A DNA stretch of 64,000 nucleotides from Confluentibacter flavum (GTDB lineage Bacteria; Bacteroidota; Bacteroidia; Flavobacteriales; Flavobacteriaceae). The stretch's first letter is position 1, and each line of letters begins with the position of its first letter. The stretch covers positions 62,001-126,000 of the forward strand of contig NZ_PJEO01000050.1 in NCBI RefSeq assembly GCF_002843175.1, read 5' to 3'. The translations under genes and the position numbers were made by a program. The notes beneath the pieces are model-generated. The model saw only the letters and a program-made list of their open reading frames with translations, made no database searches and was not told where the DNA came from. Below, piece after piece: positions 33,425 to 45,952 of the stretch.

Positions 33425-34813
33425 TTATTTAGATAGCTCCGTAAAATACTTATAAAACAAGGGAATGGTTTCAATGCCTTTTAAATAGTTAAAAATCCCG
33501 AAGTGTTCGTTTGGTGAATGGATGGCATCGCTGTCCAAACCAAAACCCATTAAAATGGTTTTGCTTTTTAATTCTTGCTCGAAAAGCGACACAATAGGAA
33601 TACTACCGCCACTGCGTTGGGGGATAGGTGTTTTACCAAAGGTAACTTGATAAGCTTTGCTTGCCGCTTGGTAGCCAATACTATCAATAGGTGTGACGTA
33701 ACCTTGTCCGCCATGATGCGGTTTTACGTTTACCTTCACACCTTCTGGAGCAATGCTGGTGAAATGTTTGGTAAATAATTCAGTAATTTCTAGCCAATCT
33801 TGATGTGGTACCAATCGCATGGATATTTTAGCATGCGCCTTACTGGCAATGACGGTTTTAGAACCTTCGCCTGTGTAACCGCCCCAAATGCCATTCACAT
33901 CTAGAGTAGGCCTAATGGCATTTCGCTCGTTGGTGGTATAGCCAGATTCTCCATAAACGCCTTCAATATCTAAGGCTTTTTTATAGTCTTCTAAATTGAA
34001 AGGTGCTTTTGCCATGTCGGCACGCTCCTCTTGTGATAACTCTTCAACCTTATCATAAAACCCAGGGATGGTAATATGGTTATTGTCATCATGAAGCGAT
34101 GCAATCATTTTCGCTAGAATATTAATGGGGTTTGCGACGGCTCCACCATACAAACCCGAATGTAAATCGCGATTGGGACCGGTAACTTCAACTTCCACAT
34201 AACTAATTCCGCGTAAACCCGTGGTGATGGAAGGAATATCATTGGCAATCATGCCTGTATCGGAAATAAGTATAACGTCATTCTTTAGTTTTTCTTGATT
34301 TTTTTTAACAAAAACGGTCAGATTCCGACTTCCCACTTCTTCTTCTCCTTCAATCATAAATTTCACATTGCATGGTAATTGGTTGGTTTGCACCATAAAT
34401 TCCAAAGCCTTTACATGCATGTACATTTGTCCTTTATCATCACAAGAACCTCTTGCAAAAATAGCACCATCTGGGTGCAAATCGGTTGTTTTAATTACAG
34501 GTTCAAAAGGGGGTGAATCCCATAAATCCAGAGGGTCTGCAGGTTGCACATCATAATGACCGTAAACTAAAACCGTAGGTAAGTTGACATCAATAATTTT
34601 TTCGCCATACACAATAGGATTGCCTTCCGTTTCACATAACTCAACAATATTGCAACCTGCTTTTTCTAAACTTATTTTTACAGCTTCGGCAGTTTTTAAA
34701 ATATCTGCCTTATAGGCAGAATCTGCACTTATGGAAGGTATTTTAAGAAGTTCAATAAGTTCGCTTAAAAATCGGTCTTTGTGTTCTTTAATATAAGATT
34801 GAATATGGTTCAT
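33425..34813 (-). CDS. M20 family dipeptidase
   Basis: Cytosolic di-zinc peptidase of 462 residues. Metal ligands are visible in VYGHYDVQPAD (first His and Asp), RGSCDDKGQMY (bridging Asp), EGEEEVGSRN (catalytic Glu and ligand) and the final LMGFGLDSDAIHSPNEHF (His). A lid domain follows DLHSGLYGGAVANP. It resembles the carnosinase/CNDP-type dipeptidases annotated as dipeptidase in Flavobacteriaceae. It stands alone. The substrate range is a family inference. Confidence 0.93.
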   Translation of the reverse strand: MNHIQSYIKEHKDRFLSELIELLKIPSISADSAYKADILKTAEAVKISLEKAGCNIVELCETEGNPIVYGEKIIDVNLPTVLVYGHYDVQPADPLDLWDSPPFEPVIKTTDLHPDGAIFARGSCDDKGQMYMHVKALEFMVQTNQLPCNVKFMIEGEEEVGSRNLTVFVKKNQEKLKNDVILISDTGMIANDIPSITTGLRGISYVEVEVTGPNRDLHSGLYGGAVANPINILAKMIASLHDDNNHITIPGFYDKVEELSQEERADMAKAPFNLEDYKKALDIEGVYGESGYTTNERNAIRPTLDVNGIWGGYTGEGSKTVIASKAHAKISMRLVPHQDWLEITELFTKHFTSIAPEGVKVNVKPHHGGQGYVTPIDSIGYQAASKAYQVTFGKTPIPQRSGGSIPIVSLFEQELKSKTILMGFGLDSDAIHSPNEHFGIFNYLKGIETIPLFYKYFTELSK

Positions 34814-34875
34814 GGCGTGTTTAAAAATGATTTTTCCAAAAGTATAAAAAAAGAATGTTTTTTAATCTTAGAAGT

Positions 34876-34904
34876 TTGCCATTTAAAAATCTTGATTATA
34901 TTTG
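34876..34904 (+). promoter_or_regulatory. Promoter of the tRNA-Leu locus
   Basis: TTG at 34876-34878, an 18-base spacer and TATATTTG at 34897-34904 match the Bacteroidetes consensus. Transcription should begin about at the first base of the truncated tRNA copy, so the intact tRNA 74 bases further on is probably processed from the same transcript. Confidence 0.65.
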
Positions 34905-34914
34905 CAGTCCTTTT

Positions 34915-34953
34915 GCGGGCGTGGTGGAATTGGTAGACACGCTAGACTTAGGA
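34915..34953 (+). pseudogene. Truncated tRNA-Leu (5' half only)
   Basis: Thirty-nine bases agree at 38 positions with the 5' half of the intact tRNA-Leu just downstream: acceptor strand GCGGGCG, complete D arm and anticodon loop CTTAGGA. After that the sequence departs (CTTAGCCAAGCAAAAGG); there is no variable arm, T arm or 3' acceptor strand. It cannot fold as a tRNA. It lies directly after the promoter, so it would form the 5' leader of the transcript. Confidence 0.85.
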
Positions 34954-34988
34954 CTTAGCCAAGCAAAAGGACAAAAAAATTTTAAAAT

Positions 34989-35070
34989 GCGGGCGTGGTG
35001 GAATTGGTAGACACGCCAGACTTAGGATCTGGTGCCGCGAGGTGTGGGAGTTCGAGTCTCCCCGCCCGTA
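34989..35070 (+). tRNA. tRNA-Leu(UAG)
   Basis: An 82-base class II tRNA. Acceptor GCGGGCG pairs with CGCCCGT (terminal G-T wobble) and the discriminator is A. The D arm contains AATTGGTAGA; the anticodon stem CCAGA/TCTGG holds loop CTTAGGA with anticodon TAG; the long variable arm TGCC-GCGA-GGTG and T arm GGGAG-TTCGAGT-CTCCC are intact. The CCA end is not encoded. A terminator follows directly. Confidence 0.96.
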
Positions 35071-35071
35071 C

Positions 35072-35101
35072 AAAAAGCCGAAGGTTTTCTTCGGCTTTTT
35101 T
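35072..35101 (+). terminator. Terminator of the tRNA-Leu transcript
   Basis: AAAAAGCCGAAG and CTTCGGCTTTTT, 12 bases each, separated by GTTTT, start two bases after the tRNA; the right arm ends in the T tract. Perfect stem. Confidence 0.9.
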
Positions 35102-35130
35102 ATTTCAAAAAACAGCCTTCTTTTTTACAC

Positions 35131-35152
35131 AGGTACAACATAGGTACAACAT
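35131..35152. repeat. Perfect 11-bp tandem duplication
   Basis: AGGTACAACAT is repeated head to tail at 35131-35141 and 35142-35152, about 60 bases after the tRNA. Placed next to a tRNA and a truncated tRNA copy, it may be a trace of an integrated element, though no integrase gene is present. Confidence 0.55.
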
Positions 35153-35927
35153 TTTACGATTTTGCTGTTCATTTTTTAATTTGTGCTTATTTGATATCTT
35201 TTAATAGTAATCTATATAAAAATATTGAAAGTAATAGTTTTCCTATTACTCATATTACTTTTGTTTAGTCCTATTGGCTTAAATTAGAGTGAGAAAAATA
35301 TTTCATTGGAGAATTGATGTTTTTAGAAAACTCAAACAAAAAGATTAGAGCAACAAAAGAAAAAGGAATTTATTGATATAACTAATGCACATAATTGGAT
35401 GATTAAAAATAGATTGGTTCTATAGCATTTATATTAATCCTCATTGGATTTAAATTGCTCTCATAAATTTTGTTAAAACTATAGTTGAAAAGAGAGCCCA
35501 CATTTAAGGGTTGAGTAATACATTATCTTAAGAATTATAATTCAAAAAAGGGCTTTAAATCAATCTTTTATACGCAATTTTCATAATTTGGTTGTCAACA
35601 TTCTGCAGTATCAAGGTTTAGTGTTCTTTATGGAAGTAATTTTGAATTAAGTTTAGTAAATTCGAATTTATAAGATTGGAATAATGATTAAGAATTAAAT
35701 GATTTTAATTTCGAAGCGTAGGAGTGGTCATGTTAATATTTGAAATTTCCAAATCCAGTAAAAGATACATTTTTAATCAATTTACAATAGTTATTGGTCT
35801 TCAGGCCAAAAATAGATTACATTTAGTATAGGACAAATTGTTTTTTATAAAATCATCACTACAAAAACTAGATTTATGAACAAAATAGCTGTAAATAAAC
35901 TTAGTAGACATTTATTTTAAATCATTC
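35153..35927. other. Gene-free, AT-rich stretch with a possible T9SS-tail remnant
   Basis: About 775 bases without a credible gene. Stops occur in all frames and no tRNA, terminator or repeat is evident. At 35740-35790 a short plus-strand frame reads LKFPNPVKDTFLINLQ before a stop, which resembles the start of a T9SS type A sorting domain (PNPVKD). Upstream in broken frames are fragments such as DWNND and ELNDFNFEA. This suggests a decayed gene for an exported protein, but the evidence is short and weak. Confidence 0.35.
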
Positions 35928-36581
35928 ATGCAGAACACAAAAAATATATATATCATTAAACGTATTGGTAAGGGACTATTGAATATAAAAGAAGAGGGGT
36001 TAAGTGTTATATGGGAGACCGCTCATGAATTGGTAGATTTTACTTCTCCATGGAATTCACAAAAAGTAGATAAAATAGTATTTAGATCCTTGTGGGATAC
36101 TGAAACACTCTTTTTTAATTTTGAAGTTGAGGACCCAGAAGTATATATTGATACTACAAATGATACCATTGAGAGCATTAACAATTCTGATCGCGTAGAA
36201 TTGTTCTTTAGGTCGGATAACAGCTTAAATCCATATTATTGTTTAGAAATAGATCCAACAACAAGGATATTGGACTTCAAGGCCAGACCAAATAATAAGT
36301 TTGATTTTAATTGGAATTGGCCTGTTAAGGACATTGAGGTAAAATCGTCAATTAATAAAACTGGTTTTATGGTTGTAGGAGCCATTAGTATTAGTTCACT
36401 TCTCAAGCTTGGTTTGATAAAATCTGGTATAATTGAGACTGGAGTTTTTAGAGCAAAATATAATAAACAGGAAAACGGGAAATATATACCTACTTGGATA
36501 ACATGGGTTGACCCAAATACGGAGACCCCTAATTTTCATGTAGCATCTTCTTTTGGAATATTCAAATTGGAAAATTTTTAA
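35928..36581 (+). CDS. CBM9-like carbohydrate-binding domain protein, no signal peptide
   Basis: Protein of 217 residues resembling the carbohydrate-binding family 9-like (DOMON-type) domain: FRSLWDTETLFFNFEVEDPEVY, then NSDRVELFFRSDNSLNPYYCLEIDP and an ending with THSW-type motif TWITWVDPNTETPNFHVASSFGIF. These domains usually bind sugars in xylanases or sit alone in polysaccharide loci. No signal peptide is visible, so a cytoplasmic location is predicted, which is unusual for this domain. It converges on the LacI-type regulator with a 4-base overlap. Fold assignment is fair, function unknown. Confidence 0.75.
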   Translation: MQNTKNIYIIKRIGKGLLNIKEEGLSVIWETAHELVDFTSPWNSQKVDKIVFRSLWDTETLFFNFEVEDPEVYIDTTNDTIESINNSDRVELFFRSDNSLNPYYCLEIDPTTRILDFKARPNNKFDFNWNWPVKDIEVKSSINKTGFMVVGAISISSLLKLGLIKSGIIETGVFRAKYNKQENGKYIPTWITWVDPNTETPNFHVASSFGIFKLENF

Positions 36582-37624
36582 TTGCCCATAAAAGGCTCTA
36601 CATTTTCCGAATTTATAATATCTATGGGCAGGAGCAATTCATTTGGGATTTCTTTTTCGAAAAGCAAAAAATCCACTAAGTATTTTAATGCGAGGTAGGC
36701 TTGTTGTTTGGGATTTTGGTGTATCAAGAAGTCAATAGTTCCTTCCTTTAAATGAGCTACATTTTCAGGTAATAAATCATATCCAACAATAGAAATGTTA
36801 TGTTGCGTTCTATTTTTGATTATTTCGGCAACTTGATAGACTTTAGAAGTAGTAACAAAAATTCCAGTTAAATATTTATGCTCATTTAAAAACAAGTTAA
36901 ACTGAGATTCAAAATTTGGATGTTTTAATTTACAGGTCAATATTTTATTTTTAAATTTCAGGGATTCATCAAAAAAACTTTTGAACCCCTTTTCCTTTTC
37001 TTGCATGTGTATGGCGTTTTTGTATTTTTCGTCAATATGTATAATCACAAAGTCGCCCTCTGATTTTCTTAAACCATACAATAATTTTGCTGCAATCCTG
37101 CCACTTTGAAATAGATCCTGTCCAACGAATTTATTGATTGTTGCAGAATTAATGCGATTGTTAAAAGTTGATACGATAATACCTAATTCTTCATATTTTT
37201 CCAATACAAACAATGATTCTTTATTAAATAGAGGAACTAGTACAACAGCATCCGGCAACATGATTTGAATGTTTTCATTTTCATTTAAAAACGATTTGGT
37301 GCATTGGGGATTGAACAGTACCGTCAGTATATTTACGCCAAAGGCTTTCAATTCAATAATGGCGTTTTTTATTCCATCGGTACAAGGACTCCAATAAGGG
37401 TCTACTTCTGGATCTGGCATTAATACACAAATATCATATACCTTGTTGTTCTTTAGGTTTCTTGCAATAAGATTCGGTTCATAATCAATCTCAGTAAGCA
37501 ATTTGGTTATTCTTTCAAGGGCTTTTTTTGAAACTTTACCCCGGTTATGTATTACCCTATCAACCGTACCTTTAGAAACCCCCGCCAATTCCGCAATATC
37601 GCGTATAGTGTATTTTTTTTTCAT
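36578..37624 (-). CDS. LacI family transcriptional regulator
   Basis: Regulator of 348 residues: LacI-type helix-turn-helix at 4-50 (TIRDIAELAGVSKGTVDRVIHNRGKVS) and the hinge helix YEPNLIARNLKNN, then a periplasmic-binding-protein-like sensor domain (about 63-345) with ICVLMPDPEVDPYW. The SKGTVDRVIHNRG variant is typical of the Bacteroidota subgroup annotated as substrate-binding domain regulators. It is divergent from the hexosamine-type operon and two LacI-like palindromes lie between, so it probably controls that operon and itself in response to a sugar or sugar phosphate. Confidence 0.92.
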   Translation of the reverse strand: MKKKYTIRDIAELAGVSKGTVDRVIHNRGKVSKKALERITKLLTEIDYEPNLIARNLKNNKVYDICVLMPDPEVDPYWSPCTDGIKNAIIELKAFGVNILTVLFNPQCTKSFLNENENIQIMLPDAVVLVPLFNKESLFVLEKYEELGIIVSTFNNRINSATINKFVGQDLFQSGRIAAKLLYGLRKSEGDFVIIHIDEKYKNAIHMQEKEKGFKSFFDESLKFKNKILTCKLKHPNFESQFNLFLNEHKYLTGIFVTTSKVYQVAEIIKNRTQHNISIVGYDLLPENVAHLKEGTIDFLIHQNPKQQAYLALKYLVDFLLFEKEIPNELLLPIDIINSENVEPFMGN

Positions 37625-37782: not shown

Positions 37783-38691
37783 ATGATGCTTAAAAAACCA
37801 ACACTTGTCATATTAGCAGCAGGTATGGGAAGCCGATATGGTGGGTTGAAACAAATCGATTCTTTTACACCTGAAGGTGATACAATTATTGATTTCTCAC
37901 TGTATGATGCCCTAAGTGCAGGATTTGGAAAATTTGTTTTTATAATACGCAAGAGTTTTGAAAACGAGTTCAAGAAAATTTTCAATAAAAAACTGGAAGG
38001 TAAAGCTGAGATTGTATACGTGTATCAAGAGCTTGATTGTGTACCCAATAAATATGTAAATCCAGAAAGAACTAGACCTTGGGGTACAGGGCATGCCCTT
38101 TTAATGGCAAAAGATGCGGTAAGTGAAAACTTTGCTATTATCAATGCAGACGATTTTTATGGTAAAGAGGCTTTTGAAATTATGGCGAAATCGCTCTCGG
38201 AAATGGATGTGAATTCATATAATTTTAATACCATGGCATATTTGTTGAAAAACACGTTGTCAGATTATGGGTTCGTATCAAGAGGCGAATGCCAAGTCAG
38301 TGAAACAGGGTTTTTGATAGATGTGACCGAGCGCACCCATATTGAAAGAATTAATGGCAAGATAATGCGAGAAAATGACGAGGGTGACCTTATCCCAATA
38401 GATGAGAACTCCGTAGTTTCAATGAATTTCTGGGGCTTTACGCCGAAATGTTTTGAATTTGGGAGCAGGTTGTTTGAAACGTTTTTAGAAGCAAACAAAG
38501 AAAATTTAAAAGCCGAATTTTACATTCCTTCAATAGTAAAGGAGATATTGAAATCGAACATGGCTACTGTTGAAGTGCTAAAGTCGAATGCAAAATGGTT
38601 TGGGGTTACTTATCAAGAAGATAAGGAAATAGTTGAAAAAGCCATTGGAATGTTGAAAAAAAATAAGGTTTATCCACGCAATCTTTGGTAA
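37783..38691 (+). CDS. Sugar-1-phosphate nucleotidyltransferase
   Basis: NTP-transferase family protein of 302 residues that joins a hexose or N-acetylhexosamine 1-phosphate to a nucleotide. The amino-terminal signature is LAAGMGSRYGGLKQID (residues 9-24), the substrate loop PWGTGHALLMAK is near 105 and the metal-binding region INADDFYG near 122. It is directly followed, 1 base later, by a kinase-like gene, suggesting kinase plus nucleotidyltransferase act in sequence. Known examples of this pairing are the Bifidobacterium lnpB-lnpC genes and mucin-related loci of Bacteroidota. Specificity for HexNAc is inferred from context. Tandem ATGATG leaves the start uncertain by one codon. Confidence 0.87.
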   Translation: MMLKKPTLVILAAGMGSRYGGLKQIDSFTPEGDTIIDFSLYDALSAGFGKFVFIIRKSFENEFKKIFNKKLEGKAEIVYVYQELDCVPNKYVNPERTRPWGTGHALLMAKDAVSENFAIINADDFYGKEAFEIMAKSLSEMDVNSYNFNTMAYLLKNTLSDYGFVSRGECQVSETGFLIDVTERTHIERINGKIMRENDEGDLIPIDENSVVSMNFWGFTPKCFEFGSRLFETFLEANKENLKAEFYIPSIVKEILKSNMATVEVLKSNAKWFGVTYQEDKEIVEKAIGMLKKNKVYPRNLW

Positions 38692-38692
38692 T

Positions 38693-39772
38693 ATGTCAAT
38701 AGAGAAACTTAAAATTATATTCAATCAGTTCCAGCACGAAGGGGAGTTCGAATCCTATCAAGAATTAGCTTCTGGTCATATCAATGATTCTTATTTAATA
38801 AAAACAAATCATAAACCCTATTTTGTATTACAGCGTATAAACCATGAAGTTTTTAAAGATGTACCAGGACTTATTGAAAACAAGGTTGCCATTAGTCAAC
38901 ATATTAGAAGAAAGTTAAAAGACCTACCTAAGAAAAAACTGAAACGCCGTGTATTGGCTTTTGCCAAAACGAAAGCAGGAGCATTTTACTTTCGGGGTGA
39001 TGACGGTAATTACTGGAACCTAATGTACTTTATTGACAAAAGTGTGTCTTTTGAAACAGTAAAAGATGAACGGATTGCCTATGAGGGAGGATGTTTGTTA
39101 GGGCAATTTTTAACTCTCACCAATGACTTTGATGTGTCAAAATTGATAGAAGTCATTCCTAAATTCCATGATATGTCATTTCGTTATATGCAATTTGAAG
39201 ATGCTTTGAGAATAGCTTCAAATGAACGACGTGGTATTGTAAAAGAACAGATTTTATTAGTTGAGGGTTTAAAGGCTGAAATGCACATTCTTCAAAGTTT
39301 GAAAGAGTCTGGGGCGATAAAAATACGAGTTACTCATAACGATACCAAAATATCTAACAGTCTTTTTAATGAAAAAAGTAAAGGACTTTGTGTGATTGAT
39401 ACAGATACAATCATGCCAGGAATAGTGCATTATGATTTTGGGGATGCTATTCGAACCATTTGCAACACAGCCGCTGAGGATGAAACCAATCTAGATTTAG
39501 TGGAGTTCAACCTTAAATATTATAAGGCATACACAAAGGGATTTCTAAAAAAAATGAAATCTTCATTGACACCTATAGAGTTGAAATACCTTCCATTGGG
39601 AGCAAAGACCATGATATTCATTATGGCTTTGCGGTTTTTAACGGATTATTTAAATAATGATGTGTATTATAAAATAAAATATCCCAATCATAATTTAGAT
39701 CGAGCTAAAAATCAGTTTAAGCTGTTACAGAGTATGTCTCAAAAGATGTCACAAATAGAAAATGAACTGTAA
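38693..39772 (+). CDS. Phosphotransferase family protein, N-acetylhexosamine 1-kinase-like
   Basis: Aminoglycoside-phosphotransferase-fold kinase of 359 residues. The catalytic loop is visible as VTHNDTKISNSLF near 213 and the metal-binding Asp in CVIDTDTIMPGIVHYDFGDAIRT. This subgroup includes N-acetylhexosamine 1-kinase (NahK/LnpB), which phosphorylates GlcNAc or GalNAc at C1; the Prevotella mdsC gene, once called mucin desulfatase, belongs here. The preceding nucleotidyltransferase would take the product. Its stop is followed directly by the ATG of a decayed epimerase gene. The exact sugar is not proven. Confidence 0.82.
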   Translation: MSIEKLKIIFNQFQHEGEFESYQELASGHINDSYLIKTNHKPYFVLQRINHEVFKDVPGLIENKVAISQHIRRKLKDLPKKKLKRRVLAFAKTKAGAFYFRGDDGNYWNLMYFIDKSVSFETVKDERIAYEGGCLLGQFLTLTNDFDVSKLIEVIPKFHDMSFRYMQFEDALRIASNERRGIVKEQILLVEGLKAEMHILQSLKESGAIKIRVTHNDTKISNSLFNEKSKGLCVIDTDTIMPGIVHYDFGDAIRTICNTAAEDETNLDLVEFNLKYYKAYTKGFLKKMKSSLTPIELKYLPLGAKTMIFIMALRFLTDYLNNDVYYKIKYPNHNLDRAKNQFKLLQSMSQKMSQIENEL

Positions 39773-40090
39773 ATGAAAAATTATGTAATCACAGGGGGTT
39801 GATTTTATAGCTAGCCATATAACCGAAATAATAATATAATGAAGGTCATACGTTGCAATTTAGATGGTTTTAGAGTAGGATTTGAAAAGAATCTTTAACG
39901 GTTACTGTGAATTTTATAACATGGGATGTTTGGGAAAGAGTATTGGTTATTGATATGGTTGAAAAATAGATGCCGTTTATATTTAGCCAAACTATAAAGT
40001 GTTCCTGAATCTTTTTAGAAAATAGAGCAATGTATTTAAATTAATTCCATAGATGCCTATGAAGTTTTTAGCCACCTAATTAAAAAGTGA
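39773..40090 (+). pseudogene. Decayed NAD-dependent sugar epimerase (amino-terminal third)
   Basis: The stretch begins MKNYVITGG (39773-39799), the Rossmann start of SDR epimerases, then a 2-base loss shifts the frame and DFIASHITEI continues at 39801. NEGHTLQF (about 39838) and NLDGFRVGFEKNL (about 39856) match later parts of the same domain in other frames, then IDAVY (about 39967). At 39986-40090 one frame reads AKL, stop, SVPESF, stop, KIEQCI, stop, INSIDAYEVFSHLIKK, stop, collinear with the epimerase segment DAVFHLA-SVPES. At least five lesions are visible and the last two thirds of the gene are gone. The ATG follows the kinase stop with no gap, so it was once a member of the operon. It is clearly non-functional. 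Confidence 0.78.
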
Positions 40091-40097
40091 GAGTATT

Positions 40098-41420
40098 ATG
40101 CAACAAATTAATAAGCAAAAAAGCAATTTAGTGCCAATAGCCATTATAGCAGGGCTCTTTTTTATATTCGGCTTCATTACTTGGATCAATGGGGCACTTA
40201 TCCCCTTTATGAAGACAATCAATGATCTGACCGATGCCCAGTCATATTTTGTAGCCTCCGCCTCTTATATTTCCTTTGTAGTTATGGCGCTGCCAGCTTC
40301 TTATATTTTAAATAGGATTGGCTATCGAAAAGGAATATCCTTAGGGTTGATGGTTATGGGAGTGGGTGCATTGGTTTTTATTCCTGCGGCAGAAGCAAGA
40401 ACCTACTGGGTATTCTTAACAGGCATTTTTATCCAAGGCACTGGAATGACCTTGTTGCAAACGGCAGCAAACCCATATATAACCATATTGGGCCCTATTG
40501 AAAGCGGCGCAAAGCGTATCGCTATTATGGGAATCGCCAACAAAACGGCTGGGGCCTTAGGATCGTTGATCTTTGGAGCCTTGTTGTTATCAGGAATCGA
40601 TGAAGTAAAAGAGAATTTGGGGAGTGTTACTGTTGAAGAAAAAGAAATCTTGTTGGACAAGATGGCCGACAGTGTATTTATGCCCTACCTAATAATGGCT
40701 ACGGTTTTATTTGTATTGGGTATACTAATTAGAAAAGCCCCGTTACCAAATTTAGAAGCAGAAGAATTTAAAGAAGTAAAAATTGATAAAAGCACAAAAG
40801 GAAGTATTTTTCATTTTCCGCATCTATGGTTGGGGGTGCTGACTTTGTTTGTTTACGTTGGGGCTGAAGTAATAGCGGGCGATACTATAATCGCCTATGG
40901 AATATCTTTAGGGTTTTCTGCTGCCGATGCCAAATTCTTTACCACATTTACGCTTTTAGCCATGGTATGTACCTACGCTTTAGGTATTATATTAATCCCT
41001 AAATATTTAAGGCAAGGAACAGCTCTTAAAATCAGTGCGGTTCTAGGTATTTTTTTTAGCATTTGCATCCTATTTACCACAGGCTTTACATCGGTCTTGT
41101 TTGTGGCGGCATTGGGAATCGCCAATGCCTTGGTTTGGCCAGCTGTTTGGCCTTTAACATTGGAAGGTTTGGGTAAGTTCACTAAAACAGGATCGGCTTT
41201 GTTAATTATGGCCATTTCTGGAGGGGCTATTATTCCACCGTTATACGGACGTATGGTAGATATCAACAAAAATGGGCTTATTTTTAGTGGAATAGAAAAA
41301 TCAGAGGCTATGGCAACAGCGGCAACAAATAGCTATTGGATATTAATCCCCTGCTATGTGATTATATTATTTTTTGCCATTTGGGGGAAGAAATACAAAA
41401 ATTGGTCTAAAAATTATTAA
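40098..41420 (+). CDS. Sugar MFS transporter, FucP/NagP-like
   Basis: Major facilitator permease of 440 residues with 12 helices. The amino terminus IAGLFFIFGFITWINGALIPFMK and QTAANPYITILGP near 126 are typical of the FucP group (fucose, glucose/galactose, GlcNAc permeases). Another conserved piece is FVYVGAEVIAGDTIIAYG near 251. With the downstream NagB fusion, uptake of N-acetylglucosamine (NagP-like) is a reasonable inference. The gene starts 7 bases after the epimerase remnant and continues after 42 bases to nagB. Confidence 0.9.
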   Translation: MQQINKQKSNLVPIAIIAGLFFIFGFITWINGALIPFMKTINDLTDAQSYFVASASYISFVVMALPASYILNRIGYRKGISLGLMVMGVGALVFIPAAEARTYWVFLTGIFIQGTGMTLLQTAANPYITILGPIESGAKRIAIMGIANKTAGALGSLIFGALLLSGIDEVKENLGSVTVEEKEILLDKMADSVFMPYLIMATVLFVLGILIRKAPLPNLEAEEFKEVKIDKSTKGSIFHFPHLWLGVLTLFVYVGAEVIAGDTIIAYGISLGFSAADAKFFTTFTLLAMVCTYALGIILIPKYLRQGTALKISAVLGIFFSICILFTTGFTSVLFVAALGIANALVWPAVWPLTLEGLGKFTKTGSALLIMAISGGAIIPPLYGRMVDINKNGLIFSGIEKSEAMATAATNSYWILIPCYVIILFFAIWGKKYKNWSKNY

Positions 41421-41462: not shown

Positions 41463-43391
41463 ATGTTACAGAGTACTATAGATAAGGCCACAGGTTTCGA
41501 AAAAAGATTTGAGAATATTGGAACAGTAGTCTATGAAAATTCAACCATAGCTTCAAAATCAGTCGCTAAGGAAATAGCAGATCTAATAAGGGTGAAACAA
41601 GCCCAAAAGCAACCTTGTATTTTAGGTTTGGCGACAGGCTCTTCGCCTAAAGGGTTATATTCAGAATTGGTCCGGTTACATAAAGAAGAGGGTTTAAGTT
41701 TTAAAAACGTAGTTTCCTTTAATTTGGATGAATACTACCCAATGGAACCAGACTCTATTAATAGTTATGTCCGATTTATGAAAGAACAACTTTTCAACCA
41801 TGTCGATATACTTACAGAAAATTATTATATACCAAATGGTAAGTTATCTAAAGAAGACATAGCTGATTATTGTAGTAATTATGAAGCAAAAATAGAAGCA
41901 TTGGGAGGTATAGATCTGCAAATCTTGGGAATAGGTGGTAATGGACATATAGGTTTCAATGAATCGGGTTCGTTACAAAACTCAAAAACCCGTTTGGTAG
42001 CTTTGGATCATGTCACAAGAGTGGCCGCAAGCAATGATTTTTCTGGATTGGAGAAAACGCCAAGAACCGCAATTACTTTAGGTGTAAAAAAAATCATGGA
42101 AGCTAAACGTGTTATACTTATGGCATGGGGAGAAGGTAAATCGCATATTATCAAAGCGTCTACCGAAGGGCCTGTTACCAGCCAGGTTCCAGCCTCGTTT
42201 TTACAAGAGCACAATAACGCCACTTTTGTTTTGGATCAATCATCAGCATCCAAATTAACACGCATCAATACGCCATGGTTGGTTGAGAAAATTAAATGGA
42301 CAGATAAGCTGATAAGAAAAGCAGTTTTGGGATTGGCGCTTCATTTGAATAAACCAATTTTAATGTTAACAGATGCCGATTATATCGAGAATGGAATGAG
42401 TGATCTATTGGCAGATTCTGGACCTGCATATGATATCAATATCAAGATATTCAATAAGCTTCAGAATACTATTACAGGTTGGCCAGGCGGAAAGCCTAAT
42501 GCAGATGACAGCAAGCGACCGGAACGTGCTGAACCGATAAAAAAGCGAGTACTTATATTTAGTCCACATCCCGATGATGATATCATCAGCATGGGAGGTA
42601 CGTTTAAACGTTTGCAAGAGCAAGGTCACGAAGTACACATAGGGTATCAAACTTCAGGTAATATAGCTGTAGCTGATGATGAGGCCTTAAGGTTTGCCAG
42701 TTTTGTATGTGATTACAATGATAAATTTGGAATTAAGAGTTTAGAAGCTGATAACATATATAAAAAAGCTATTACATTTCTTGAAAATAAAAAGACGAGT
42801 GAAATAGATATTTTAGAGGTAAGATATATCAAAGGGTTAATTAGGAAAGGAGAAGCACAATCTGCCTGCTATTTTATTGGTGTTCCAGAAAGTCAAATTC
42901 ATTTTATGGAACTGCCATTTTATGAAACAGGAACTATTGAGAAAAAACCATTGGAAGAAGAAGATATTCAAATTACAATGGACTTGATCGAAAAAATAAA
43001 ACCACACCAAATTTATGCTGCAGGGGATTTGCAAGATCCACATGGTACCCACAAGGTATGTTTAGATGCTGTTTTTGGAGCGGTGAAAAGACTTAAGTCT
43101 AAAAAATTCATGAATGACTGTTGGGTGTGGTTATACAGAGGCGCTTGGCAAGAATGGGGCATAGATGAAATTGAAATGGCAGTGCCTATGGGTCCAGACC
43201 AAGTGTTGGAAAAGCGTAAAGGCATATTTAAGCACCAATCACAAAAAGACGGTGTAGTTTTTCAAGGAGCGGACAGTAGGGAGTTCTGGCAACGTGCGGA
43301 AGATAGAAACAAGGAAACAGCCAATTTGTATGACCAATTGGGGTTATCCCGTTATGCAGCTATGGAAGCCTTTGTAAGGTGGATGTATTAG
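41463..43391 (+). CDS. nagB: Glucosamine-6-phosphate deaminase fused to a PIG-L/LmbE deacetylase domain
   Basis: Two-domain protein of 642 residues. The first part (about 1-270) is NagB: LATGSSPKGLYSELV near 55, VVSFNLDEYYPM with the catalytic Asp, and LGIGGNGHIGFNESG near 157. It converts GlcN6P to fructose-6-phosphate and ammonia. The second part (about 365-642) is a PIG-L/LmbE-type zinc deacetylase with SPHPDDDIISMGG and DPHGTHKVC. The fusion is a known Bacteroidota architecture annotated as glucosamine-6-phosphate deaminase; the function of the second domain is unproven. No nagA is in the operon, so the deacetylase could conceivably fill that step, which is inference. Confidence 0.95.
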   Translation: MLQSTIDKATGFEKRFENIGTVVYENSTIASKSVAKEIADLIRVKQAQKQPCILGLATGSSPKGLYSELVRLHKEEGLSFKNVVSFNLDEYYPMEPDSINSYVRFMKEQLFNHVDILTENYYIPNGKLSKEDIADYCSNYEAKIEALGGIDLQILGIGGNGHIGFNESGSLQNSKTRLVALDHVTRVAASNDFSGLEKTPRTAITLGVKKIMEAKRVILMAWGEGKSHIIKASTEGPVTSQVPASFLQEHNNATFVLDQSSASKLTRINTPWLVEKIKWTDKLIRKAVLGLALHLNKPILMLTDADYIENGMSDLLADSGPAYDINIKIFNKLQNTITGWPGGKPNADDSKRPERAEPIKKRVLIFSPHPDDDIISMGGTFKRLQEQGHEVHIGYQTSGNIAVADDEALRFASFVCDYNDKFGIKSLEADNIYKKAITFLENKKTSEIDILEVRYIKGLIRKGEAQSACYFIGVPESQIHFMELPFYETGTIEKKPLEEEDIQITMDLIEKIKPHQIYAAGDLQDPHGTHKVCLDAVFGAVKRLKSKKFMNDCWVWLYRGAWQEWGIDEIEMAVPMGPDQVLEKRKGIFKHQSQKDGVVFQGADSREFWQRAEDRNKETANLYDQLGLSRYAAMEAFVRWMY

Positions 43392-43489: not shown

Positions 43490-43816
43490 ATGATAAAGAT
43501 TGATTATAAGAAGGAAAGTATATTAAATGAAGATTCAGTTTTTGGATTAATTCAAAAGAAATCTTTTAAAACCATTGAACTATACCAAAAGTTTATTAAT
43601 TGGGTTTCTGGAGAATTTGATTTATATCTTCAGGAAGAATCCATGGGTTTAAAAGTGTACTATCCAAATGGGTGGTTTGCATTTGAAAAGAAAAATAAAC
43701 ATACTAGTAATTTTAGTGTTGAAATACTTGTAAAAGGAAAATCAAGAATAGACTGTCAAAAGATATTATTTCAACTAGATCTCATTTATAACCATGTTGC
43801 TTGTTTTCAGAATTAA
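43490..43816 (+). CDS. Hypothetical protein of 108 residues
   Basis: Open frame with a clear ATG and an acidic/lysine mix (ESILNEDSVFGLIQKKSFKT), no signal peptide and no membrane helix. I recognise no family. The stop abuts the next open frame. Codon use resembles that of its neighbours, which supports a real gene, but there is no motif to name it. Confidence 0.5.
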   Translation: MIKIDYKKESILNEDSVFGLIQKKSFKTIELYQKFINWVSGEFDLYLQEESMGLKVYYPNGWFAFEKKNKHTSNFSVEILVKGKSRIDCQKILFQLDLIYNHVACFQN

Positions 43817-44023
43817 ATGTTAATCAAAACCAAACAATTAAATATGGAAATAATTAACAATTCACTAAAAAATGTGAATGGCCTTTTTCATATCTCAAGC
43901 TCTAATTCTTTTTTTAGAGGTTTTTTCTTATATATATATTGTCTCAACTTTTATGGTAGCCGATGGATTAGTAATTGTTTTTTGAGATGGTCGCGATTGA
44001 TAAACATTAAAAATCTTATACAA

Positions 44024-45952
44024 ATGAAAAAATTAAAGAAACAAAATGAAGGCTTCTATTATTTAAAAAATAATTTAGATCCTAAAATCGGAAACAAACA
44101 TCACTATATAGACCTATTCATAATATTACTTATTAATTTGCACATATATGGGCTAACTTCAGAAACTCCCTTATATCGATTAAATCATGCAAATTACCAA
44201 TTTCAAAATGTCGATTTTGATAGAGCCATTCATGATGAATTAATTTTAGCGGGCAATAATAAACATGAACAACATACTAAGTACACTAACAAAGATTTGT
44301 ATGCTATCGATGATGCTAATTATTATAGAGTTTACGAAAAGGGGACACTAGTAGGAACAGCTTATCATGTTGGCCCTGGACAAGCTTTAGCTACAATTTC
44401 TGAAGTCCCTTGGGCCACTTTAGAACCAGGAGATTGTGTTTACATTCACTGGCGAGAAACTCCTTATAAAGAAAAATGGGTAATTAATAGACAAGGCACA
44501 GAAGCTAATCGCATTAAAATCATTGGAGTTAATGGTCCAGAAGGGCAACAAGCAGTAATTGATGGTAATGGGGCAACCACAGTAGATGGCGTTATTCTTT
44601 GGAATGATACAAGAGGAGTTATTAAAATAGGAGGGTCTGCAATACCTCAAGATGGATTACCCAACTATATCACTATTGAAAATCTTGAAGTGAAATCTGC
44701 TCGACCACCTTATGATTACACTGATGAAGATGGCATAACGGAAGGTTATTCTACTTTAGGAGCTGCAATTTATGTAGAAAAGGGAGCAAACTTAATTATT
44801 AGAAATTGTACATTACATGATTCGGGATTTGGTTTGTTCATTGGTGCTAACAATGGAAACTCAGAAAATATTTTGATTGAAGGAAACCACTTCTATGATA
44901 ATGGTATTGAATCTAGTAACTTTGGGCACAACACTTATACGGCTGCTGTTAATATCACCTATCAATATAATCATTTTGGTCCCTTGAGGGCTGGAGCGAA
45001 TGGCAATAATCTTAAGGACAGATCGGCAGGTTTAGTCGTTCGATACAATTGGATTGAAGGAGGCAATAGACAATTAGATATGGTAGATGCTGAAGATTCC
45101 CATATTTTGGTAAACCACCCAAGTTACAACACTACTCAAGTTTATGGGAATGTTTTAATTGAACCTGCTGATTCAGGAAACAATCAAATGGTTCTTTATG
45201 GAGGCGACAGTGGCACTACAGTAGATTATAGAAAAGGAAATCTGTATTTTTATAATAACACCATTATCTCTACTAGAGACGATACAACCACACTACTTGC
45301 ATTATCTACTAATGACGAAACTGCACACGTATTCAATAATGTTCTGTATACTACAGTTTCTGGAGATCAATTGGCAATAATGAGCACTGAAGGTACAGTT
45401 AATATACATCATAACTGGCTCAAAACAGGATGGAAAGATTGCCATTGTGCTATTCAAAACGGCAGTGTAAATGACCAAGGAAATAATATAACTGGTTCAG
45501 ATCCACTATTCAAAGATTTTAATGCTCAAAATTTTAGTTTAATGGAAAATTCCTCATTAATTAACCAAGGCAATGTCATTCCCTCCTTATTGCTGCCAAA
45601 TCATAACGTGTCTTTTGAATATATTAAGCATCAAAACTTTGAGAGCAGAACAGTATCTGGAAATTTAGATATAGGTGCTTTTGAATACAATTCGAATTTA
45701 TCTGTAAACGACGAAATATTTAGCTCAAGAGTCTCAGTTATGCCAAATCCTATAGATACAATTTTTAAAATTGAGATTGAAGGTGGTGTTTTAGAGAATG
45801 TAATTATTTATAATGAATTTGGGCAACAATTAAAAAAAGTAACGACCTACAAAGTTGATATTTCCAATTTTTCTCCTGGTATTTATTTTTTTAAAATAAT
45901 CTCAAAAGATGGAAAAACGACTATTAAAAAAGTGATTAAGAAATTAAAATGA
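44024..45952 (+). CDS. Right-handed beta-helix protein with T9SS sorting domain
   Basis: Predicted exported protein of about 642 residues. The ATG at 44024 is preferred: it follows an A/T-rich stretch and precedes the hydrophobic segment YIDLFIILLINLHIYG; an open frame to 43817 adds about 69 residues with no signal peptide. After a 190-residue head the protein shows parallel beta-helix repeats such as NLIIRNCTLHDSGFGLFIG, NILIEGNHFYDNG and LYFYNNTII, typical of pectate-lyase-like sugar-active enzymes. The end has a type IX sorting domain: VMPNPIDTIFKIEI, then SPGIYFFKIISKDGKTTIKKVIKK. The stop overlaps the next gene by 4 bases. Substrate is unknown. Confidence 0.85.
   Translation: MKKLKKQNEGFYYLKNNLDPKIGNKHHYIDLFIILLINLHIYGLTSETPLYRLNHANYQFQNVDFDRAIHDELILAGNNKHEQHTKYTNKDLYAIDDANYYRVYEKGTLVGTAYHVGPGQALATISEVPWATLEPGDCVYIHWRETPYKEKWVINRQGTEANRIKIIGVNGPEGQQAVIDGNGATTVDGVILWNDTRGVIKIGGSAIPQDGLPNYITIENLEVKSARPPYDYTDEDGITEGYSTLGAAIYVEKGANLIIRNCTLHDSGFGLFIGANNGNSENILIEGNHFYDNGIESSNFGHNTYTAAVNITYQYNHFGPLRAGANGNNLKDRSAGLVVRYNWIEGGNRQLDMVDAEDSHILVNHPSYNTTQVYGNVLIEPADSGNNQMVLYGGDSGTTVDYRKGNLYFYNNTIISTRDDTTTLLALSTNDETAHVFNNVLYTTVSGDQLAIMSTEGTVNIHHNWLKTGWKDCHCAIQNGSVNDQGNNITGSDPLFKDFNAQNFSLMENSSLINQGNVIPSLLLPNHNVSFEYIKHQNFESRTVSGNLDIGAFEYNSNLSVNDEIFSSRVSVMPNPIDTIFKIEIEGGVLENVIIYNEFGQQLKKVTTYKVDISNFSPGIYFFKIISKDGKTTIKKVIKKLK

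Follow-up and report, generated by a model that had tools for sequence, protein, structure and literature searches.

The window analysed here, a stretch of 64,000 nucleotides (64 kb) of the Confluentibacter flavum genome, carries the operon listed in Table 1. The kinase is homologous to solved N-acetylhexosamine 1-kinases across nearly its full length, and its THNDTK and DTD motifs are invariant in seven relatives. dN is low for both the kinase and the nucleotidyltransferase (for the latter, dN 0.15 and dS 4.6 against the nearest relative); dS was saturated or undefined in most comparisons, so that low dN alone was used. The MFS transporter matched NF046060 (NagP) with an E value of 5.5e-121, yet stayed under the cut-off of that model. 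The small protein encoded 3′ of NagB matched nothing in Pfam or NCBIfam, and a plasmid search gave no match.

Table 1. Genes and features of the operon in the window.
Feature	Coordinates	Strand	Evidence
CBM9-like protein gene, conserved operon neighbour	35928..36581	+	PF06452 E 6e-12; likewise placed in most relatives
LacI-family regulator, divergent to operon	36578..37624	-	PF00356, PF13407; likewise placed in most relatives
Sugar-1-phosphate nucleotidyltransferase (NTP), intact	37783..38691	+	PF00483; PDB 3pnn E 4e-91
NahK/BT4240-type N-acetylhexosamine 1-kinase, intact	38693..39772	+	PDB 4wh1 E 4.5e-62
Pseudogene, first ~100 codons of WbpP-like UDP-GlcNAc/GalNAc 4-epimerase	39773..40070	+	nhmmer, orthologue alignments
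Deletion junction, then transporter leader	40071..40097	+	40076-40097 resembles a relative's MFS leader
MFS transporter, NagP/GluP-like	40098..41420	+	TIGR01272 above cut-off
Glucosamine-6-phosphate deaminase (NagB) fused to PIG-L domain	41463..43391	+	NF002557 1053 bits; PF01182; PF02585
Conserved small protein, 108 aa, 3′ of NagB	43490..43816	+	likewise placed in several relatives

Between the kinase and MFS genes lies a gap of 325 bases (39773-40097), in which the preliminary description had recognized a broken SDR epimerase gene. Indeed, an ATG directly follows the kinase TAA (39770-39772), and the peptides quoted at that time are all present: MKNYVITGG, LDGFRVGFEKNL, SVPESF and INSIDAYEVF in the first frame of the gap, DFIASHITE in the second. 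They are collinear with residues 1 to ~101 of the intact 308-aa epimerase of relatives, and tblastn with a relative's intact enzyme as query matched the gap as two collinear pieces. A nucleotide profile built from seven intact epimerase orthologues, run against the whole window with nhmmer, gave a sole significant match, at 39773-40070 (75 bits, E 2.5e-23), the runner-up scoring below 0 bits. The closest DNA is that of the intact gene of relative G233 (70%). The profile, the collinear alignment and the shuffles described below thus bear out the first reading of the gap, and we regard it as virtually certain that 39773 to ~40070 is a relic with epimerase homology.

The first frame of this relic contains eight in-frame stops, and at least two indels break the frame, one of them within the GGAGFIG motif of the NAD-binding Rossmann fold. 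Homology stops near codon 101, at ~40070, the epimerase codons beyond this point (about 205) are missing from the gap, and 40076-40097 is similar to the leader found 5′ of the MFS ATG in a relative. Therefore, a single deletion, about 205 codons long, brought epimerase codon ~100 up against the transporter leader. The neighbouring operon genes remained open. Collinear with an intact orthologue at the matching operon slot, and with its frame lost through stops, frameshifts and a deletion, the relic is a case of ordinary gene loss, in which a degenerate 5′ third is left of an SDR epimerase gene that belonged to the operon.

The gap has a G+C content of only 29% and stops in every frame, and an AT-rich spacer might spell epimerase-like peptides in several frames by chance. 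The window-wide E value refutes this, as do 1000 dinucleotide shuffles of the gap, none of which came near the score of 75 bits obtained for the real gap (top score 3.7 bits); position and orientation, moreover, agree with those of the intact genes of relatives. We give such a coincidence a negligible probability, and no greater one to the idea that the gene is intact and was misread in sequencing or misassembled. The assembly is in 57 contigs, which is nothing specific to this locus, but eight stops, several indels and the disappearance of two-thirds of the gene are implausible as base-calling errors, and elsewhere in the genome no match exceeds 41% identity to the operonic epimerase.

How is this gene distributed in the family? 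In a sample of 397 Flavobacteriaceae genomes, that of the window included, 43 encode a close homologue of the kinase, and 38 loci were compared. As a rule, a CBM9 gene and a divergent LacI gene precede the nucleotidyltransferase, kinase, MFS and NagB genes, in that order. An intact epimerase of ~306 aa lies exactly between kinase and MFS in seven relatives (G169, G263, G006, which is Flavicella sediminum, G233, G253, G262, and G170, which is Leeuwenhoekiella polynyae), and Flavobacterium phragmitis is an eighth relative with a whole epimerase at that slot. This comparison, proposed as a check in the preliminary description, upholds the arrangement postulated there: the ancestral order is nucleotidyltransferase-kinase-epimerase-MFS-NagB, still intact in relatives.

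About 30 operons of relatives are cleanly devoid of the epimerase. No relic was found in any of 20 further spacers between kinase and MFS, which are 13-128 bases long, and neither the spacer at 34800-35935 nor the downstream spacers contained any when probed with the ORFs of related loci. In Flavobacterium sp. 245 (L127:6900-9900), the epimerase carries a stop and a frameshift, and the nucleotidyltransferase is broken at several points with the kinase still open; this is a second, independent epimerase decay. On the tree of the nucleotidyltransferase and kinase, epimerase presence requires at least 5-6 changes. The distribution is compatible with an ancient operon gene that has been lost repeatedly, on a tree that cannot separate gain from loss; the absence from the ~30 operons could partly be non-gain, and the certain losses are those in the window and in Flavobacterium sp. 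245.

Part of the operon occurs a second time in the genome, on contig C37, as a set of MFS gene (80% identical), Gfo/Idh oxidoreductase gene and NagB gene (88%) together with the gene of the small downstream protein. Genes for SusC/D, GH20, GH3, GH95 and GH29 are nearby. A 33-codon remnant of the kinase C-terminus is found just 5′ of the C37 MFS gene (L047:1501-1599; G000:C37:29448-29546), and both operon copies therefore carry a relic. The kinase and the nucleotidyltransferase are kept in the window copy only. PDB sequence searches with the ORF at 43817-45952 in the window and with a 642-aa ORF of C37 returned no match. No copy of the kinase turned up in those congeneric genomes that were searched. 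The congeneric flanks (14-17 kb) hold different genes, which places the operon in a variable region. A tRNA-Leu gene lies at 34989-35071, and its 5′ half is repeated ahead of it over 40 bases (34914-34953); in three congeneric genomes there appears to be one copy. DNA similarity to the congeneric genomes G002, G003 and G004 stops just past the tRNA-Leu gene, with 35102-64000 lying beyond.

Which activity was lost can be approached through the intact orthologues. Their best PDB match is 6dnt, followed by WbgU, both of which are UDP-GlcNAc 4-epimerases (PMC12820599). The signature set of the WbpP/6DNT enzymes consists of Gly/Ala-Ser-Val, Tyr, Asn, Ala and Ser (PMC12820599). Six of these seven residues are matched by the intact orthologues (S78, V79, Y141, N170, A184 and S272), the sole mismatch being a Val for the Gly/Ala before SV, and the gatekeeper position is occupied by Ser; SVPES is retained in the first frame of the relic. 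This six-out-of-seven agreement makes the step from UDP-GalNAc to UDP-GlcNAc the most likely one to have been lost, and residue conservation suggests that the ancestor very probably had WbpP-type, UDP-GlcNAc/UDP-GalNAc 4-epimerase activity. Two other contexts of the orthologous epimerase speak for an involvement in the metabolism of amino-sugar phosphates. Its neighbour in G018 is a phosphoglucosamine mutase (GlmM-type) gene, with TIGR03990 above cut-off, whereas in G024 (L212:7015-9944) the genes ahead of it encode a GHMP kinase similar to galactokinase and a nucleotidyltransferase. The G024 row may represent the pathway in a form that uses an unrelated kinase.

The gene content points to the following pathway. 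The kinase would yield HexNAc-1-phosphate and the nucleotidyltransferase UDP-HexNAc; the operonic epimerase would then convert UDP-GalNAc to UDP-GlcNAc, to be drained via GlcNAc-1-P and GlcNAc-6-P to NagA and NagB. A nagA gene is present in the genome (C8:175932). The operonic epimerase would be dispensable in this scheme, as a housekeeping open-gatekeeper GalE, and often also a WbpP-like enzyme of polysaccharide synthesis, would do the same step.

The likeness to Bifidobacterium lnpB(nahK)/lnpC/lnpD that had been put forward for this locus holds in part. The logical and functional set is the same, a HexNAc 1-kinase, a uridylyl transfer and a 4-epimerase ending in GlcNAc-1-phosphate (PMC6109692), and the window kinase, alone among the three, is a clear family member, related to NahK. 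However, LnpC is GalT-like and uses UDP-glucose, and LnpD is GalE-like (PMC6109692), whereas the window nucleotidyltransferase belongs to PF00483 and is not GalT-like, and the epimerase in relatives of the window operon is WbpP/WbgU-like, not GalE-like. The transporter also differs, MFS in the window operon and ABC in Bifidobacterium. PF09508 (GH112, LnpA) had no match in the genome, and the control genomes were equally without match. Among the Bacteroidota, BT4240 of Bacteroides thetaiotaomicron (B. theta), which like the window kinase is related to B. longum NahK, is an APH-type enzyme that phosphorylates GalNAc to the 1-phosphate and without which the bacterium does not grow on GalNAc (PMC11992087). 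Its locus likewise combines an APH-type HexNAc 1-kinase with an MFS transporter in a glycan locus, but the main text of that study makes no mention of a nucleotidyltransferase or an epimerase (PMC11992087). With WbpP, WbgU and the Methanobrevibacter 6DNT enzyme, the intact orthologues share the fold family and six of the seven signature residues; here, in contrast, the operon looks catabolic and the window copy is reduced to a relic. The galE2 remnant of Neisseria meningitidis is also a truncated 4-epimerase pseudogene in the presence of another, persisting epimerase gene (PMC5349592); there the 5′ end was lost through capsule-island capture, whereas the window relic lost its 3′ end inside a catabolic-looking operon.

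Why could the gene be lost? The search for a second epimerase in the genome, suggested at the outset, found two candidates, a WbpP-like gene on contig C22 (G000:C22:31275-32381) and a GalE on contig C4 (C4:192088). By sequence, the WbpP-like enzyme is the closest other epimerase of the genome, at only 41% identity to the operonic one. It has all seven signature residues, and its gene adjoins a further SDR gene and an ORF resembling nucleotide-sugar dehydrogenases. GalE has Ala at the position of E. coli GalE Tyr299, as in all 22 genomes sampled for this gatekeeper. Either enzyme could, judging from these residues, replace the lost step, and for GalE the predicted activity on GalNAc is based on a single residue. 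We had considered that WbpP-like genes might be commoner where the operonic epimerase is absent; this was rejected, 21 of 28 genomes without the epimerase having one against 7 of 8 with it (G018, with a relocated epimerase copy, counted as with). The WbpP-like gene is therefore not a general substitute, seven of the 28 epimerase-less genomes also lacking it, and these counts leave the open-gatekeeper GalE as the more general candidate. Its occurrence in all 22 sampled genomes makes the operonic epimerase look redundant. With two other enzymes still encoded that could take over the step, the genome could probably afford the loss; that redundancy was the reason for losing the gene is an explanation we favour slightly.

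An alternative is that the strain lost the use of GalNAc and that the operon now serves GlcNAc only and needs no 4-epimerase, the remaining epimerases acting in polysaccharide or galactose metabolism. Most operons are without the epimerase, the MFS protein is similar to the GlcNAc transporter NagP, B. longum NahK accepts both sugars (PMC11992087), and the second operon copy adjoins GH20 and GH3 genes that could release GlcNAc. But the related B. theta kinase favours GalNAc about 275-fold (PMC11992087) and 6-phosphorylation would be a simpler route for GlcNAc alone, and we consider this alternative unlikely, if still worth serious attention. Slightly less credit still goes to separate entry of the epimerase into the operon in several lineages, as a mobile cassette member, with later decay of the copy acquired by the window. 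Patchy presence and the other contexts of the gene in G018 and G024 speak for such a history; against it, the operon slot is identical in all eight relatives, and the epimerase and kinase trees have their main splits in common, the agreement extending to those splits only. We retain as probable the explanation as a whole, namely the relic of a WbpP-type epimerase, a nucleotide-sugar pathway whose function is inferred from genes, and a loss tolerated through redundancy.

In conclusion, the relic may be a snapshot of a loss that has happened repeatedly. We tentatively propose, without holding it as the likelier case, that GalNAc catabolism in Flavobacteriaceae, and by extension in other Bacteroidota, runs via nucleotide sugars (GalNAc-1-P, UDP-GalNAc and 4-epimerization to UDP-GlcNAc), the operonic epimerase being an optional member that is repeatedly discarded as the widely present open-gatekeeper GalE covers its step. 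The relic also warns against taking the epimerase as a marker gene for the GalNAc pathway. The operon itself suggests how Bacteroidota handle phosphorylated GalNAc, a product whose further fate the study of the B. theta kinase did not settle (PMC11992087).
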